Positions 6,514 to 15,741 of a stretch of DNA of 64,000 nt are shown here, one piece after another; within the stretch, counting starts at the first letter, position 1; every line of letters starts with the position of its first letter. The stretch comes from Rhizobium sp. BT04 (GTDB lineage: Bacteria > Pseudomonadota > Alphaproteobacteria > Rhizobiales > Rhizobiaceae): assembly GCF_030053135.1 (NCBI RefSeq), contig NZ_CP125652.1:2328001-2392000 (forward strand), in the 5' to 3' direction. Under the pieces are notes generated by a model, which saw only the letters and a program-made list of their open reading frames with translations, was not told the DNA's origin and did no database searches. A program made the position numbers and the translations under genes.

Positions 6514-7416
6514 ATGGCACCCGATCACATCGTTGACGCAATTACGATTTCCGGGGTGGAAAAGAAGTTTGGACGCGGACGGCAAGCAGTGATTGCTCTT
6601 GATGGGCTGTCGCTGCGTATTCCGCGTGGAAAGATATTCGGTCTGCTTGGCCCAAACGGCGCCGGCAAGAGCACGTTGTTACGGATCATCGCTGGCCTCG
6701 TCCGGCAAGACAAGGGAAGCGTCGAATTGTTCGGCCGCCGCCCGGACCAGGCTTCCCGGCGCAGGGTCGGCATGCTGATCGAGGCGCCGACCATCTATCC
6801 GTTCCTGACCGCACGAGAGCATCTGCGCATGCTGGGATCATATTCGGAAAGGCGCCTGCACGTCGACGCTGTCCTTCGACGTGTGGGGATATTTGCTGCG
6901 GCAGACAAAAAGGCGGGAGAGTTCTCGCTGGGAATGAAGCAGCGGCTCGGGATTGCATGCACGCTGATTTCCAGACCCGATGCCATCATCCTCGACGAGC
7001 CCACGAACGGCCTCGACCCAGACGGCATCCTGCAAATGCGGGCTCTCTTGAGAGAATTGGCAGAACAAGATGGAACAACGGTTCTCTTTTCCAGCCATCT
7101 CCTTGATGAGGTCGAGCGCGTCTGCGATCACATCGCGATCTTGCGGCAAGGCCGGGTCGTCGTTGAAGGAGATGTTGCCCATCTCCTCGATCGGGAAGGA
7201 CGGTTTTGGCTCGATGTCGATCGACCGGCAGAGATCGTCGACCGCCTCGGCGCGATTGCCGAGCTTGCCGATGGCGGCCTCTATGTCCGGCTCGAGCGCA
7301 AACATATCCCAGATCTCCTGAGATCCATCGTTTCTGCGGATATCAAGGTGTATGAAGCGAAATGGGTGAAGCCGGACCTGGAAACTGTGTTCTTGTCCCA
7401 GACGAGGAATGATTGA
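6514..7416 (+). CDS. ABC transporter ATP-binding protein (BcrA/CcmA type)
   Basis: 300 aa. Walker A is GPNGAGKST (about 49-57), the signature is FSLGMKQR (about 138-145), Walker B is IILDEPTNG, and the H-loop is SSHLLDEVER. The long C-terminal part after residue 220 is typical of ATPases serving ABC-2 exporters for peptides or antibiotics (BcrA-like). Translation probably starts at 6514, although the ribosome site is weak. It is coupled to the permease gene by TGATG overlap. Base composition is somewhat less GC-rich than in the neighbouring genes, which could indicate acquisition. The substrate is unknown. Confidence 0.88.
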   Translation: MAPDHIVDAITISGVEKKFGRGRQAVIALDGLSLRIPRGKIFGLLGPNGAGKSTLLRIIAGLVRQDKGSVELFGRRPDQASRRRVGMLIEAPTIYPFLTAREHLRMLGSYSERRLHVDAVLRRVGIFAAADKKAGEFSLGMKQRLGIACTLISRPDAIILDEPTNGLDPDGILQMRALLRELAEQDGTTVLFSSHLLDEVERVCDHIAILRQGRVVVEGDVAHLLDREGRFWLDVDRPAEIVDRLGAIAELADGGLYVRLERKHIPDLLRSIVSADIKVYEAKWVKPDLETVFLSQTRND

Positions 7417-8216
7417 TGACAGGCCTCGTTCGCTTCGAGCTGCTAAAGCTTGCCAGACAGCCGGCGCTGCTTTTCTGGGGGTTCTTTTTCGTCCCGTTGG
7501 CGGTGACGGTGTTCAAACTGTTCCTGATCTTATTCATCGTCATACGGTCACTCCAGTCTCCGGCAACGGGATCCGATTTGATCCTCGCAGCAGCCAAGTC
7601 GCTCAGCATCTCCGGAAACTCGCTGGCGCAGCTCTTGTTTGCAATCGGCATAGCGGGCGTGTTTCACCTTGAATATCGTCTGGCGACCTGGCGCCTCGTG
7701 GTGCCGAGAGCGTCACGGGTTTCGATTTGGCTTGCCAAATTCCTGACCTGTCTCTTTTGCATTTTCATCAGCCTGTCCGTGCTTGTGCTTGGCGACTTTT
7801 CGGTTGATATCGTCGCGGCTTTCACCAGCCCCGGTTCGTCATCGCTGGAAATCCATCCTGATAGCGTTCAGATGCTGATCATCTCGTCGGCAATTGCCAC
7901 GATGGAACTGACCGTCTTGATTGCGCTCGTTTCGGCAATGGCGATCCTCACACGCTCATTGATTGCAGCGGTCCTGCCGGCCTTCATGCTCGCAATCGTT
8001 TCGTCAATCATGCAAGTCTATCTGGGAACAACGACATCTCCCGTCCCATTGCCCGCGTTCAGCGCAGAAATGCTGCGGACATGGTTGTTTGACCAAAGCC
8101 GCGACGTCACTGACGCCTATGCATGGAGCGGACTTGCGATTTTGACATTATGGCTCCTTGTGGGAATTGCGATTGGGTCAATCGGCTTTGCAAGGCAGCA
8201 ATTGTATTCCGAGTGA
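7416..8216 (+). CDS. ABC-2 type transporter permease
   Basis: 266 aa hydrophobic protein with about six membrane segments (for example residues 18-45, 95-125, 145-170 and 180-200). An N-terminal LVRFELLKLARQPALLFWG start is typical of ABC-2 permeases such as BcrB. The ATG at 7416 overlaps the ATPase stop (TGATG); an in-frame TTG at 7413 is less likely. With the preceding ATPase it forms a complete two-gene exporter. No regulator or biosynthesis gene lies beside it. Confidence 0.82.
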   Translation: MTGLVRFELLKLARQPALLFWGFFFVPLAVTVFKLFLILFIVIRSLQSPATGSDLILAAAKSLSISGNSLAQLLFAIGIAGVFHLEYRLATWRLVVPRASRVSIWLAKFLTCLFCIFISLSVLVLGDFSVDIVAAFTSPGSSSLEIHPDSVQMLIISSAIATMELTVLIALVSAMAILTRSLIAAVLPAFMLAIVSSIMQVYLGTTTSPVPLPAFSAEMLRTWLFDQSRDVTDAYAWSGLAILTLWLLVGIAIGSIGFARQQLYSE

Positions 8217-9770: not shown

Positions 9771-12700
9771 TCAAAACTCGTGATATGCTGTGAGCAACGC
9801 TTGGACTTGGTCGTTGTTCATTGCGGCAATTTGTTGAGCTTTGAAGCCGCCAATTTGATCTTCGCTGAGGCCAGCGATGTCCGCCACCTCAAGACCTGTG
9901 ATTGCTTTCGTGTTGATTGCGCCGATGTCATCAACAGAGAACTTTGCCAGATCGGCGGTGCTCATTGCTGTGATCTGAGCCGCGCTTAGGGACGCTGTTT
10001 GCGCAGTGGTGAGCGCTTCGATCTGGCTCTCGGTCATCGCATCGATCTGCCCGGCCTTGAGACCTGCAACCGCCTTGACGTTGATCGCCGCGACCTGACC
10101 TTCCGTCAGCGCACCAATCTGGCCAGTCGTCAGCGAGCCAACCTGACCAGACGTCAGAGCACCGACCTGAGCCGTGCTCAGTTTGGCGACCTGTGCCGTC
10201 GTCAACGCGCCAATCTGTTCGTTCTTCATGGCCGCAATCTGCGGAGCCTTCAAACCAGCAAGCTGATCGTCGGTCAGAGCAGCAACAGCCGTGGTCGAAA
10301 GACCGGTGATCGCATTGGCGCTGATCGCGCCGATCTGTTCCGCTGAGAACTTGGCCAGACCGCCGGTGCTGATGGCACCGATCTGGGTCGAGCCCAGAGC
10401 GCCGATCTGGCCAACGGTCAGGGCACCCGCCTGCGTGTCCGTCAGAGCGCCGATCTGCCCGACCGTGAGACCTGCAACCGCCTTGACGTTGATCGCCGCG
10501 ACCTGACCTTCCGTCAGCGCACCAATCTGGCCAGTCGTCAGCGAGCCAACCTGACCAGACGTCAGGGCACCGACCTGAGCCGTGCTCAGTTTGGCGACCT
10601 GTGCCGTCGTCAACGCGCCAATCTGTTCGTTCTTCATGGCCGCAATCTGCGGAGCCTTCAGACCAGCAAGCTGATCATCGGTCAGAGCAGCAACAGCCGT
10701 GGTCGAAAGACCGGTGATCGCCTTGGCGCTGATCGCGCCGATCTGTTCCGCTGAGAACTTGGCCAGACCGCCGGTGCTGATGGCACCGATCTGGGTCGAG
10801 CCCAGAGCGCCGATCTGGCCAACGGTCAGGGCACCCGCCTGCGTGTCCGTCAGAGCGCCGATCTGCCCGACCGTGAGACCTGCAACCGCCTTGACGTTGA
10901 TCGCCGCGACCTGACCTTCCGTCAGCGCACCAATCTGGCCAGTCGTCAGCGAGCCAACCTGACCAGACGTCAGGGCACCGACCTGAGCCGTGCTCAGTTT
11001 GGCGACCTGTGCCGTCGTCAACGCGCCAATCTGTTCGTTCTTCATGGCCGCAATCTGCGGAGCCTTCAGACCAGCAAGCTGATCATCGGTCAGAGCAGCA
11101 ACAGCCGTGGTCGAAAGACCGGTGATCGCCTTGGCGCTGATCGCGCCGATCTGTTCCGCTGAGAACTTGGCCAGACCGCCGGTGCTGATGGCACCGATCT
11201 GGGTCGAGCCCAGAGCGCCGATCTGGCCAACGGTCAGGGCACCCGCCTGCGTGTCCGTCAGAGCGCCGATCTGCCCGACCGTGAGACCTGCAACCGCCTT
11301 GACGTTGATCGCCGCGACCTGACCTTCCGTCAGCGCACCAATCTGGCCAGTCGTCAGCGAGCCAACCTGACCAGACGTCAGGGCACCGACCTGAGCCGTG
11401 CTCAGTTTGGCGACTTGTGCCGTCGTCAACGCGCCAATCTGTTCGTTCTTCATGGCCGCAATCTGCGGAGCCTTCAGACCAGCAAGCTGATCGTCGGTCA
11501 GAGCGGCAACAGCCGTGGTCGAAAGACCGGTGATCGCCTTGGCGCTGATCGCGCCGATCTGTTCCGCTGAGAACTTGGCCAGACCGCCGGTGCTGATGGC
11601 ACCGATCTGGGTCGAGCCCAGAGCGCCGATCTGGCCAACGGTCAGGGCACCCGCCTGCGTGTCCGTCAGAGCGCCGATCTGCCCGACCGTGAGACCTGCA
11701 ACCGCCTTGACGTTGATCGCCGCGACCTGACCTTCCGTCAGCGCACCAATCTGGCCAGTCGTCAGCGAGCCAACCTGACCAGACGTCAGGGCACCGACCT
11801 GAGCCGTGCTCAGTTTGGCGACCTGTGCCGTCGTCAACGCGCCAATCTGTTCGTTCTTCATGGCCGCAATCTGCGGAGCCTTCAGACCAGCAAGCTGATC
11901 ATCGGTCAGAGCAGCAACAGCCGTGGTCGAAAGACCGGTGATCGCCTTGGCGCTGATCGCGCCGATGTCCTCGGGAGAGAACTTGGCTAGGTCGGCCGCA
12001 CTCATAGCGCCAAGCTGGCTAGCGCTTAACGCCGCCGTCTGTACAGGGCTGAGCGCTTCGATCTGGCTCTCGGTCATCGCATCGATCTGCTCGGCCTTGA
12101 GACCTGCAACCGCCTTGACGTTGATCGCCGCGACCTGACCTTCCGTCAGCGCACCAATCTGGCCAGTCGTCAGCGAGCCAACCTGACCAGACGTCAGAGC
12201 ACCGACCTGAGCCGTGCTCAGTTTGGCGACCTGTGCCGTCGTCAACGCGCCAATCTGTTCGTTCTTCATGGCCGCAATCTGCGGAGCCTTCAGACCAGCA
12301 AGCTGATCGTCGGTCAGAGCGGCAACAGCCGTGGTCGAAAGACCGGTGATCGCCTTGGCGCTGATCGCGCCGATCTGTTCCGCTGAGAACTTGGCCAGAC
12401 CGCCGGTGCTGATGGCACCGATCTGGGTCGAGCCCAGAGCGCCGATCTGGCCAACGGTCAGGGCACCCGCCTGCGTGTCCGTCAGAGCGCCGATCTGCCC
12501 GACCGTGAGACCTGCAACCGCCTTGACGTTGATCGCCGCGACCTGACCTTCCGTCAGCGCACCAATCTGGCCAGTCGTCAGCGAGCCAACCTGACCAGAC
12601 GTCAGGGCACCGACCTGAGCCGTGCTCAGTTTGGCGACCTGTGCCGTCGTCAACGCGCCAATCTGTTCGTTCTTCATGGCCGCAATCTGCGGAGCCTTCA

Positions 12701-14018
12701 GACCAGCAAGCTGATCATCGGTCAGAGCAGCAACAGCCGTGGTCGAAAGACCGGTGATCGCCTTGGCGCTGATCGCGCCGATCTGTTCCGCTGAGAACTT
12801 GGCCAGACCGCCGGTGCTGATGGCACCGATCTGGGTCGAGCCCAGAGCGCCGATCTGGCCAACGGTCAGGGCACCCGCCTGCGTGTCCGTCAGAGCGCCG
12901 ATCTGCCCGACCGTGAGACCTGCAACCGCCTTGACGTTGATCGCCGCGACCTGACCTTCCGTCAGCGCACCAATCTGGCCAGTCGTCAGCGAGCCAACCT
13001 GACCAGACGTCAGGGCACCGACCTGAGCCGTGCTCAGTTTGGCGACTTGTGCCGTCGTCAACGCGCCAATCTGTTCGTTCTTCATGGCCGCAATCTGCGG
13101 AGCCTTCAGACCAGCAAGCTGATCATCGGTCAGAGCAGCAACAGCCGTGGTCGAAAGACCGGTGATCGCCTTGGCGCTGATCGCGCCGATCTGTTCCGCT
13201 GAGAACTTGGCCAGACCGCCGGTGCTGATGGCACCGATCTGGGTCGAGCCCAGAGCGCCGATCTGGCCAACGGTCAGGGCACCCGCCTGCGTGTCCGTCA
13301 GAGCGCCGATCTGCCCGACCGTGAGACCTGCAACCGCCTTGACGTTGATTGCCGCGACCTGACCTTCCGTCAGCGCACCAATTTGGCCAGTCGTCAGCGA
13401 GCCAACCTGACCAGACGTCAGGGCACCGACCTGAGCCGTGCTCAGTTTGGCGACCTGTGCCGTCGTCAACGCGCCAATCTGTTCGTTCTTCATGGCCGCA
13501 ATCTGCGGAGCCTTCAGACCAGCAAGCTGATCATCGGTCAGAGCAGCAACAGCCGTGGTCGAAAGACCGGTGATCGCCTTGGCGCTGATCGCGCCGATCT
13601 GTTCCGCTGAGAACTTGGCAATGCCGTCATCGCCGAGCGCAGCAATCTGCGTAGCACTAAGCGCACCAATTTGCTTTGCAGTCAGATCACCGACCTGGTC
13701 GGCCGTGAGCGAATCAAGCTGAGAGTTATCCATCGCTGACACTTGCGAAGCGTCTAAGCTTTGGATTTTGGCGGCATCGAGAACAGCCAATTGAGCAACG
13801 GTCAGACCCTTGATGGAAGATGCCGAAATTGATGCAAGCTGGCTGCCGTTCAACTCGGTAAAGTCCTCAACCTCCAGCGCGGCTACTTGATCCTTGCTCA
13901 AGGCCTTCACCTGGGTCGCATTCAAGGAACCTACTTCTTCCTTAGTCAAAGAAGTAATCGTCGCGGTGGAAAGAGATTTGATCTGAGTTGCGGTAAGAGA
14001 AGAAACAATGGAGGTCAT
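9771..14018 (-). CDS. Giant octapeptide-repeat protein (7 residues + 176 octads)
   Basis: 1415 aa, function unknown. After the leader MTSIVSS the whole protein divides exactly into 176 octapeptides, with no other domain. The consensus is L-[TS]-x-x-Q-[IV]-[GA]-[AKSG]. Octads 1-16 (residues 8-135) are diverse. Octads 17-169 are nine blocks of 17 octads (136 aa). The last seven octads end in LLTAYHEF. The translated sequence has no Arg, Cys or Trp, and only one Tyr and one His. No signal peptide or membrane segment is visible. The ribosome site is weak (AAAGG about 12 bases upstream). The [TS]xxQ spacing resembles a helix capping box, so short repeated helices are possible, although a beta-solenoid is not excluded. 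The composition suits a secreted or surface fibre (inference). A shorter paralogue lies at 15325-15741. Confidence 0.85.
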   Translation of the reverse strand: MTSIVSSLTATQIKSLSTATITSLTKEEVGSLNATQVKALSKDQVAALEVEDFTELNGSQLASISASSIKGLTVAQLAVLDAAKIQSLDASQVSAMDNSQLDSLTADQVGDLTAKQIGALSATQIAALGDDGIAKFSAEQIGAISAKAITGLSTTAVAALTDDQLAGLKAPQIAAMKNEQIGALTTAQVAKLSTAQVGALTSGQVGSLTTGQIGALTEGQVAAINVKAVAGLTVGQIGALTDTQAGALTVGQIGALGSTQIGAISTGGLAKFSAEQIGAISAKAITGLSTTAVAALTDDQLAGLKAPQIAAMKNEQIGALTTAQVAKLSTAQVGALTSGQVGSLTTGQIGALTEGQVAAINVKAVAGLTVGQIGALTDTQAGALTVGQIGALGSTQIGAISTGGLAKFSAEQIGAISAKAITGLSTTAVAALTDDQLAGLKAPQIAAMKNEQIGALTTAQVAKLSTAQVGALTSGQVGSLTTGQIGALTEGQVAAINVKAVAGLTVGQIGALTDTQAGALTVGQIGALGSTQIGAISTGGLAKFSAEQIGAISAKAITGLSTTAVAALTDDQLAGLKAPQIAAMKNEQIGALTTAQVAKLSTAQVGALTSGQVGSLTTGQIGALTEGQVAAINVKAVAGLKAEQIDAMTESQIEALSPVQTAALSASQLGAMSAADLAKFSPEDIGAISAKAITGLSTTAVAALTDDQLAGLKAPQIAAMKNEQIGALTTAQVAKLSTAQVGALTSGQVGSLTTGQIGALTEGQVAAINVKAVAGLTVGQIGALTDTQAGALTVGQIGALGSTQIGAISTGGLAKFSAEQIGAISAKAITGLSTTAVAALTDDQLAGLKAPQIAAMKNEQIGALTTAQVAKLSTAQVGALTSGQVGSLTTGQIGALTEGQVAAINVKAVAGLTVGQIGALTDTQAGALTVGQIGALGSTQIGAISTGGLAKFSAEQIGAISAKAITGLSTTAVAALTDDQLAGLKAPQIAAMKNEQIGALTTAQVAKLSTAQVGALTSGQVGSLTTGQIGALTEGQVAAINVKAVAGLTVGQIGALTDTQAGALTVGQIGALGSTQIGAISTGGLAKFSAEQIGAISAKAITGLSTTAVAALTDDQLAGLKAPQIAAMKNEQIGALTTAQVAKLSTAQVGALTSGQVGSLTTGQIGALTEGQVAAINVKAVAGLTVGQIGALTDTQAGALTVGQIGALGSTQIGAISTGGLAKFSAEQIGAISANAITGLSTTAVAALTDDQLAGLKAPQIAAMKNEQIGALTTAQVAKLSTAQVGALTSGQVGSLTTGQIGALTEGQVAAINVKAVAGLKAGQIDAMTESQIEALTTAQTASLSAAQITAMSTADLAKFSVDDIGAINTKAITGLEVADIAGLSEDQIGGFKAQQIAAMNNDQVQALLTAYHEF
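9942..13613 (-). repeat. Nine tandem 408-bp units inside the octad gene
   Basis: Each unit encodes 17 octads (136 aa), beginning FSAEQIGA-ISAKAITG in most. Read in the coding direction, units 1-3 and 5-8 are type A, ending LTVGQIGA-LGSTQIGA-ISTGGLAK. Units 4 and 9 are type B, with LKAxQIDA-MTESQIEA ending MS[AT]ADLAK. The order AAAB AAAAB shows a higher-order duplication. Copies differ mostly by scattered synonymous changes. 408 is a multiple of 3, so unequal exchange changes length without breaking the frame. Confidence 0.93.
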
Positions 14019-14407
14019 CTATGGAGCGCCTTTAGGTTGACCGATTGCGATGTTATTCCTGCCAGCGGTGTCGCGAGAAGCACCGCCGCTTGGAGCGGAT
14101 CCTGCGCTTCGACGTCGCTCGCCGTCTAGCCGATACGGAACGCACCGACGACTCGGATCTTGGGAACATGAAAGTGACGAAACATCGCTCGGCGGAGCCA
14201 AGGCGTCGGGAAGGCATCATGCTCACAGGGCGAAAATGGACCCTGTCTCCCTAACCTGAAAACACCATGACTTGCCAATCAAGCCGGTGTCCTCGAATTC
14301 GATTACCGAGTACGCAAATATTTTGGACATCAGAATTCTGCTCAAATAACTATCCGGCAAATGTCTAATTTCAGGTTAACGGCGACGCGGTCTAGAGCAG
14401 ATCCTGT
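14019..14407. other. 389-bp gene-free region upstream of the octad giant
   Basis: No convincing gene is present; the small open frames on the + strand overlap each other and have no family features. The region should hold the promoter of the giant gene. It contains a 10-bp inverted repeat (TAACCTGAAA at 14252-14261, TTTCAGGTTA at 14369-14378) around 107 bp of more AT-rich DNA, and the 15-mer TCTAGAGCAGATCCT (14391-14405) against the IS630 remnant. Confidence 0.5.
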
Positions 14408-15023
14408 TCAATCCGGGTCATATCCTGCAGCTCTCAAGTAGTTTGCGCATTCTCCAGGGGGGAACCGGGGTAGCAAGGCGCCGACTGCGTCCCATAGCGC
14501 ATCAATCTTTCGCTCCGCTCTTGCCCGCAACATCGCTTTCAATTTCGAGAATGCGTTTTCGATGGGATTAAAGTCGGGACTATAGGGCGGCAGAAACACG
14601 CGTTTGGCGCCGGTGCGCTCGATGGCTTCGCGCACCCCGGCTGCCTTGTGGGCCGGCAGGTTATCCATAACGACGACGTCGCCGGTCTGAAGGGGCGGCG
14701 AAAGCACTTACTCGACACAAGCCATCGCTCCATCGTAGACGAAGGGTGCGGTCATGCCTGTGAGGCGGAGCGCGCAGGTGAATGTCGTTGTTTTCCAATG
14801 GCCGTGCGGTATGCCAGTCCGATAACGCTCGCCTCGAATTGCGCGTCCGCGCAACCGTGCCATTTTGGTCGACAGGCCGTTCGACGGGCAATCGATTCAC
14901 TGGATCGATTGCTTCTCCGTCTCACCATCTATAAAGATCAGCCTATCGGGATCGAGATCAAGCTGACCATCGAACAGGCACATCGCCGCTTCAGGACATC
15001 CGGCCGATCCTGCTCCAATGCAT
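14408..15023 (-). pseudogene. IS630-family transposase remnant
   Basis: The C-terminal DDE part is well preserved: [40 protein letters not shown] and [13 protein letters not shown], ending at 14408. The same frame upstream reads STKMARLRGRAIRGERYRTG then HGHWKTTTFTCALRLTGM, and is broken by TAA at 14708-14710, where a short deletion joins ACVE to VLSPPLQ. Further upstream, DLDPDRLIFID and HALEQDRPDVLKRR occur in shifted frames. So the gene has at least two frameshifts and a stop and cannot make an active transposase. Confidence 0.8.
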
Positions 15024-15073
15024 GTGCGCTCCACGAGATTGCGTTCACAGTATAGGGCATAGTCGCAGGCAAC

Positions 15074-15324: not shown

Positions 15325-15741
15325 TCAGGCAATGCACGTCGCCACATCCGCGGGGCTCAGGGCCGCAATCTGCAGCGAACTGAGGACGCCGACTTGGGAT
15401 GACGTCAAAGCCTCTGCTTGCGCCGTCGTCAGCGCGCTGATCTGCTTGGTCGTGATTGCTGCGATCTGCAGCGAGGTTAAACTTTCGATGGCGGACGTCG
15501 TCAGTACGGCCAGTTGATCAAGAGTGAGGCCGGATACGGCACCTTGCGAAATTGCGCTCAACTGCTGAGAGCTGAGGACCTCTACGTCTTCAGTATCCAA
15601 GGCGGTGATTTGAGCCGACGACAGGACACTGATCTGCTTCGTGGAAAGAGTTGCTACGTCTTCCGTCGTCCAGGCAGCGACAGCCGCCGTCGAAAGCGAC
15701 CTGATCTGAGTGAAACTGTAGGAAGAAACTATCGAGGTCAT
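15325..15741 (-). CDS. Short octapeptide-repeat protein, paralogue of the giant's head
   Basis: 138 aa: the leader MTSIVSS is identical to the giant's, then 16 octads and the tail CIA. I start it at the ATG at 15741 because that reproduces the paralogue's N-terminus; the open frame runs on upstream to 16032 without similarity. The octads align one by one with octads 1-16 of the giant, for example LDTEDVEV with LEVEDFTE, ISQGAVSG with ISASSIKG, and LTLDQLAV with LTVAQLAV. It is therefore homologous in register and not just similar in composition. Function unknown; it may be the unexpanded ancestral form or a partner subunit. Confidence 0.75.
   Translation of the reverse strand: MTSIVSSYSFTQIRSLSTAAVAAWTTEDVATLSTKQISVLSSAQITALDTEDVEVLSSQQLSAISQGAVSGLTLDQLAVLTTSAIESLTSLQIAAITTKQISALTTAQAEALTSSQVGVLSSLQIAALSPADVATCIA

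Follow-up and report, generated by a model that had tools for sequence, protein, structure and literature searches.

A 176-octad ALTTAQ-repeat protein of Rhizobium sp. BT04, built in 17-octad units, with a predicted short-helix alpha-solenoid fold and O-glycosyltransferase genes beside relatives

Introduction

Mesothelin is described as 24 short helices wound into a right-handed solenoid, with repeats of 27-37 residues (PMC10035497), and the Caulobacter protein FlmG, which combines TPR and glycosyltransferase, is reported to modify flagellins in the cytoplasm (PMC7591256). Here, we compare with these systems a gene of Rhizobium sp. BT04 that encodes, behind a short N-terminus, nothing but octapeptide repeats (octads). 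The gene lies in a stretch of 64,000 nucleotides (assembly GCF_030053135.1, contig NZ_CP125652.1, positions 2,328,001 to 2,392,000), hereafter termed the window, and its coordinates are given as positions therein. The repeat family is already catalogued as ALTTAQ_rpt (Pfam PF20080), and no paper naming ALTTAQ, PF20080 or heliscrew was found in the open-access library searched. However, the 17-octad build of the array and the glycosyltransferases that neighbour its relatives offer a first clue to a role that can be put to the test. On balance, we lean towards a secreted alpha-solenoid rod that is O-glycosylated in many relatives, a reading in which the fold is predicted, whereas secretion, glycosylation and function are inferred.

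Results

An Uninterrupted Octad Array of the ALTTAQ Family

The coding sequence occupies positions 9771-14018 on the minus strand, with the stop codon at 9771-9773, and is translated into 1415 residues; the plus strand contains stops over the same positions. Division from residue 8 yields 7 + 176 x 8 residues without insertion up to the stop codon, exactly as stated in a preliminary description made from the sequence alone. Position 1 of the octad is L, I, M or F in all 176 units; T or S occupies position 2 in 128 of them and Q position 5 in 129, and the self-identity of the array at a shift of 8 residues amounts to 0.37, far above chance, as compared to 0.04-0.12 at shifts 1-7. These counts bear out the regular consensus of the preliminary description, with the exception of the final octad, LLTAYHEF, which departs from the canonical pattern, and of 28 of the 176 octads, in which A replaces Q at position 5.

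The Pfam family PF20080 matches the protein with 770.3 bits at a cut-off of 26.4 (E 1.9e-238), 54 stretches pass on their own, and the octad consensus and register of the family recur in the array, with L at position 1, S or T at position 2 and Q at position 5. By this sequence evidence, the product is a stand-alone ALTTAQ-repeat protein. Nine other Pfam families were likewise matched, five of them above the cut-off; no single stretch passes for any of these, and the matches were attributed to composition. Ice-nucleation and TAL families were absent among the 10 Pfam matches obtained at E up to 1. TAL-effector repeats have a unit of 33-35 residues, as opposed to the 8 residues found here. In line with these results and with the all-helical predicted structure described below, the distinction that had been drawn from ice-nucleation octads and from the TAL-effector unit length holds.

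Moreover, the Protein Data Bank (PDB) chain HeliScrew4 (9zem) aligns without gaps over 108 residues, corresponding to 13.5 octads (E 7.7e-16; profile E 4.2e-32). It has the same octad spacing; its 120 residues remain below the size of the superunit described in the next section. The preliminary description had recognised no named family and had considered a new solenoid class; in view of the strong PF20080 match and the match to 9zem, the first idea is wrong and the second is not supported. It had also held that a strong match to a described repeat family with known structure would speak against novelty, and by this rule novelty falls, with the qualification that the name of 9zem, and the name alone, suggests a designed protein, that the two were compared by sequence only, and that no function for the repeat emerged from the searches made here.

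Most of the 120 PF20080 relatives listed carry further Pfam domains, some of which may be spurious, whereas the window protein consists of the repeat only. To judge by their names, the relatives come from Verrucomicrobiota, Proteobacteria, Actinobacteria and Planctomycetota, and in several cases (P0043, P0003 and others) the arrays are fused to calpain-like C2 cysteine proteases.

A 17-Octad Superunit and a Ladder of Lengths

A second level of repetition, which the preliminary description had missed, comprises 17 octads, that is 136 residues or 408 bp. Tandem Repeats Finder reported 8.8 copies of 408 bp at positions 10043-13619 with 96% matching, and the self-identity of the array at a shift of 136 residues is 0.86. 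In the direction of translation, all on the minus strand, the gene begins with the 7-residue N-terminus MTSIVSS (13998-14018), similar to the MTSI[IV]-type N-termini seen in many relatives. As judged from the octad table, there follow octads 1-17, a diverged N-terminal unit (13590-13997), and octads 18-170, nine 17-octad units (9918-13589) most of which are near-identical, with variant sequence at octads 80-85 and 164-169. Octads 171-176 (9774-9917) form a six-octad end closing with the C-terminal motif QVQALLTAYHEF, assigned from the octad table, the relatives and the AlphaFold2 (AF2) model. In a survey of 121 PF20080 proteins, in which no shift was computed where octads were too few, 136 was the clear best shift in three, the window's included, indicating that the superunit is rare outside the window's family.

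All eight complete Rhizobium-type relatives, which were retrieved by means of two short peptides taken from the window protein (9 of 15 candidate stretches) and are 39-40% identical to it, comprise exactly 1415 residues, as do the arrays at loci L077 and L083. This constancy would be expected if the size of 176 octads were itself the function, as in a molecular ruler. However, other complete in-phase relatives of a wider sample span 91 to 329 octads. In the tree, the window protein falls into a clade of 10 rows (support 100/99) with lengths of 156 to 329 octads, its nearest neighbours being arrays of 261 and 329 octads. Since this clade is so diverse, 176 octads are not a shared fixed length but one step of a ladder of 6 + 17k octads. 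The spread of lengths largely refutes the ruler, which we regard as very improbable.

The ladder itself is apparent from the octad number, which equals 6 modulo 17 in 24 of 42 complete in-phase relatives, as in the window array, the lengths found being 91, 142, 159, 176, 210, 261 and 329 octads. When reduced to 29 genus/length combinations, deduplicated and listed by hand with the window included, 13 are of this kind where 1/17 is expected (p 2.8e-9); the count omits out-of-phase arrays, arrays for which no start was found, and the cut array of L045. Thus, the lengths of the relatives fit resizing by whole 408-bp units.

The superunit may have a structural counterpart. Taken jointly over 39 non-redundant distant arrays, nine octad features peak at 0.298 per octad, equivalent to 3.36 octads, with a band power near this frequency of 1.289 versus 1.035 +- 0.049 in 300 octad shuffles (largest 1.169), and in the arrays of the window's family four of the nine features peak highest at 0.294, or 5/17. 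This periodicity of the sequence, rather than model coordinates, points to approximately 3.4 octads (27 residues) per superhelical turn. At this pitch, 17 octads may correspond to five turns and would be the smallest number that brings the array back exactly onto one face; the construction and resizing of the gene by 408-bp units could be explained in this way.

A Predicted Solenoid of Very Short Helices

AF2 prediction of residues 1-287, employing an alignment that added 49 rows drawn from the window and Rhizobium-type relatives, resulted in a pLDDT of 95.6 and a pTM of 0.87; 34 of 35 octads were assigned a helix of 4-6 residues. As a check that the alignment had not imposed the fold, a second prediction was run on the C-terminal 287 residues from the single sequence. 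The best of five models reached a pLDDT of 93.6 and a pTM of 0.85, the remaining four 91.9, 88.0, 86.4 and 43.5 in pLDDT, and it likewise contains about one helix per octad, the final helix being 10 residues long. The residue preceding each predicted helix is octad position 2, mostly S or T. The helix cap that had been proposed for the [TS]xxQ spacing and the fibre of very short stacked helices are both supported by these predictions, and the short-helix alpha-solenoid fold is well supported by the models.

Foldseek ranked mesothelin first for both models (E 1.3e-4 and 3.4e-5, TM 0.43 or below), and the nearest solved structures further include importin-alpha and designed armadillo proteins, whereas 9zem was absent from these structure matches. 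The Pfam family Mesothelin (PF06060) did not match the window protein at E up to 1. The distant ALTTAQ protein P0002 scored just below the cut-off of this family (25.5 versus 25.8 bits).

A TPR-GT41 O-Glycosyltransferase Adjoins Many Relatives

Of 47 genome groups and 20 genera, 26 and 10, respectively, have a TPR-GT41 O-glycosyltransferase of one subfamily in the fetched region of an array. In these counts, the Rhizobium-type loci and the window each represent one group, and the sample is not random, as loci were chosen from array matches, some after the GT41 places were known. A UDP-galactopyranose mutase often accompanies the two genes. At L093 and L094 the GT41 gene is flanked by one short and one long array. 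In two genomes of other families, GT41 directly follows the array: in genome G351 a frame encoding an array of 2448 residues ends at L142:7347, GT41 starts at 7453, approximately 105 bp downstream, and a GT61 gene follows; in genome G372 the array ends at L141:2185 and GT41 starts at 2269, approximately 80 bp downstream, followed by oppositely oriented OEP, HlyD and ABC transporter genes (L141 2269-9304).

Four further loci (L133, L135, L136 and L137), selected for their GT41, gave no array, and their GT41 is only 33-38% identical. The regions of L088, L110, L112, L126 and L127 run up to the end of a contig, those of L098, L114 and L130 begin at one, and L124 is a whole 7-kb contig. At L098, GT41 is present and the array unparsed, so that it stands outside the linkage counts. 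Some linkage rows show the same gene twice (L093/L131, L094/L132 and L077/L134), and L131, L112 and L130 were counted as unlinked though their region is cut on one side.

At the level of genomes, GT41 was found within the family in 50 of 71 array genomes versus 61 of 323 (Fisher p 1.3e-16), and within the phylum in 19 of 28, the 19 being counted by hand, versus 109 of 370 (p 7.5e-5), both tests assuming that the array and GT41 searches drew the same genomes and leaving kinship uncorrected. Outside the family, coordinate comparison placed GT41 within approximately 10 kb of the array in 6 of 10 array-holding genomes picked by hand. Two genomes of family f47, G041 and G089, contain 58 and 29 GT41 matches, respectively, and several ALTTAQ frames.

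In an exploratory comparison whose rows include duplicates and contig-end cases, the fraction of S/T at octad position 3 was 0.78 in 10 GT41-linked versus 0.51 in 15 unlinked genus groups (p 0.00097). Position 2, the presumed N-cap, was alike in both (0.77 versus 0.76), and among eight further measures only total S/T differed too (p 0.007). In the window array, position 3 is S or T in only 36% of the octads, and the window's own clade is without a neighbouring array-type GT41.

Indications of Export

The window protein has no N-terminal signal peptide evident by eye. In the long class of arrays (L084, L087, L103, L121 and L122), a non-octad linker precedes a terminal [DE]-[IV]-A-[AS]-[IL]-I-S-S-Y-L, which suggests, by its sequence and place, a separate C-terminal signal. 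Some relatives carry domains of extracellular type, namely RTX, calpain-type protease, F5/8C, cadherin and metalloprotease. The lack of an evident N-terminal signal, a C-terminal motif that recurs among the arrays, these domains and the G372 locus together suggest a type I-like export.

The first of these observations would also suit a protein that stays in the cell, as an intracellular scaffold or a peptide-binding solenoid of the ARM/HEAT type. The place of importin-alpha and designed armadillo proteins, next to mesothelin, among the nearest solved structures ranked by Foldseek and the absence of a type I secretion set among the 10 neighbours scanned point the same way. Given the C-terminal motif and the extracellular domains of the relatives, we consider such a role unlikely, if by no means far-fetched, and prefer the exported rod.

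The Locus in the Window

At higher coordinates, 15325-15741 on the minus strand, the scan of open reading frames (ORFs) revealed a truncated ALTTAQ paralogue of 7 residues, 16 octads and three residues before the stop. Over 128 residues it is up to 73% identical to long-class arrays and 47% to the main array, and it looks like the N-terminal portion of such an array. The two array genes are separated by a fragment of the IS630 family (14392-15028), the top-ranked match of which is an IS630 transposase encoded on a plasmid of Sinorhizobium fredii (86.7%). The stretch around this fragment matches 419 plasmid records, mostly rhizobial. A neighbouring gene has its best matches in Sinorhizobium, Shinella and Neorhizobium, which, like the names of the Rhizobium-type relatives, points to Rhizobiaceae or close kin. 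The locus may be the remnant of a pair of a short and a long array like those at L093 and L094.

A truncated copy beside an insertion sequence fragment would also be expected of a decaying or selfish repeat expansion that is functionless at present in this strain, and PF20080 was not matched at E up to 1e-5 in any of seven sampled genomes of the same genus. However, the frame of 1415 codons is intact, its 176 units are all in exact phase, it has retained the C-terminal motif, and its fold is predicted with confidence. Decay therefore appears improbable to us, and we return to the secreted rod.

Discussion

In the rod envisaged here, each octad would contribute a helix of 4-6 residues and a short turn, with S/T at position 2 as the N-cap and positions 1 and 6 in the core. 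The octads would stack into one continuous alpha-solenoid which, at the turn deduced above, would be approximately 52 turns long in the window protein. Export most likely proceeds without a cleaved N-terminal signal, in a type I-like manner with a C-terminal signal, and outside the cell the rod might serve as an adhesin, matrix component or surface filament. In many relatives, the neighbouring TPR-GT41 would act in the cytoplasm before export and O-glycosylate the exposed Ser/Thr residues that occupy position 3 (or 4) of the octad. The window copy, with fewer Ser/Thr at position 3 and no GT41 nearby in its clade, is probably unglycosylated.

Several observations weigh against this reading. In the structural part, octad 18 (ISAKAITG) holds no helix in the model of residues 1-287. 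Only 12 of the 39 distant arrays peak individually in the 3.4-octad band (5.2 expected), a period-2 signal is stronger overall in these arrays, and for other features of the window-family arrays the harmonics 2/17 and 7/17 are equally strong. As to glycosylation, 21 of the 71 array genomes of the family are without GT41. The GT41 label takes only 4 changes on the tree, so that the position-3 difference rests on few events; moreover, the unlinked branches L089 (0.79) and L115/L128 (0.70-0.73) are high in position-3 S/T, and the S/T-rich octad position in G351 is 4 instead of 3. In the window itself, array-type GT41 was not matched anywhere in the 64 kb. The only GT41 of this genome is located 1.4 Mb away in a flagellin locus (L097 8246-15946, with four flagellins and FliP); given this location and its identity of only 33-35% to the array type, it is probably a flagellin enzyme, likely of an FlmG-like flagellin glycosylation locus. 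Furthermore, HlyD, OEP and a fused ABC exporter were not found among the 10 neighbouring ORFs scanned, which include an ABC ATPase at 6514-7416.

A wider proposal is put forward more tentatively. ALTTAQ arrays in general may be secreted rods resized by five turns (17 octads), the Ser/Thr residues of which are dedicated targets of an adjacent cytoplasmic, OGT/FlmG-like TPR-GT41, resulting in an even coat of sugars; the clade of the window could then have lost the enzyme, with its acceptors fading. If true, the arrays would be naturally occurring scaffolds of great regularity, on which glycans are evenly spaced. The periodicity, the 17-octad quantum and the neighbouring O-glycosyltransferase render structure, length variation and function directly testable.

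Both described systems introduced at the outset can be set beside the arrays and their neighbouring enzymes. Mesothelin, stereocilin and otoancorin form a family of extracellular short-helix solenoids, and mesothelin was the best Foldseek match of both array models, albeit with a TM of at most 0.43 and without a match of the sequence profile. FlmG resembles the array-linked enzymes in uniting TPR and glycosyltransferase, and is reported to modify, in the cytoplasm, proteins that are exported (PMC7591256). The substrate of FlmG is flagellin, whereas the TPR-GT41 described here adjoins octad arrays.
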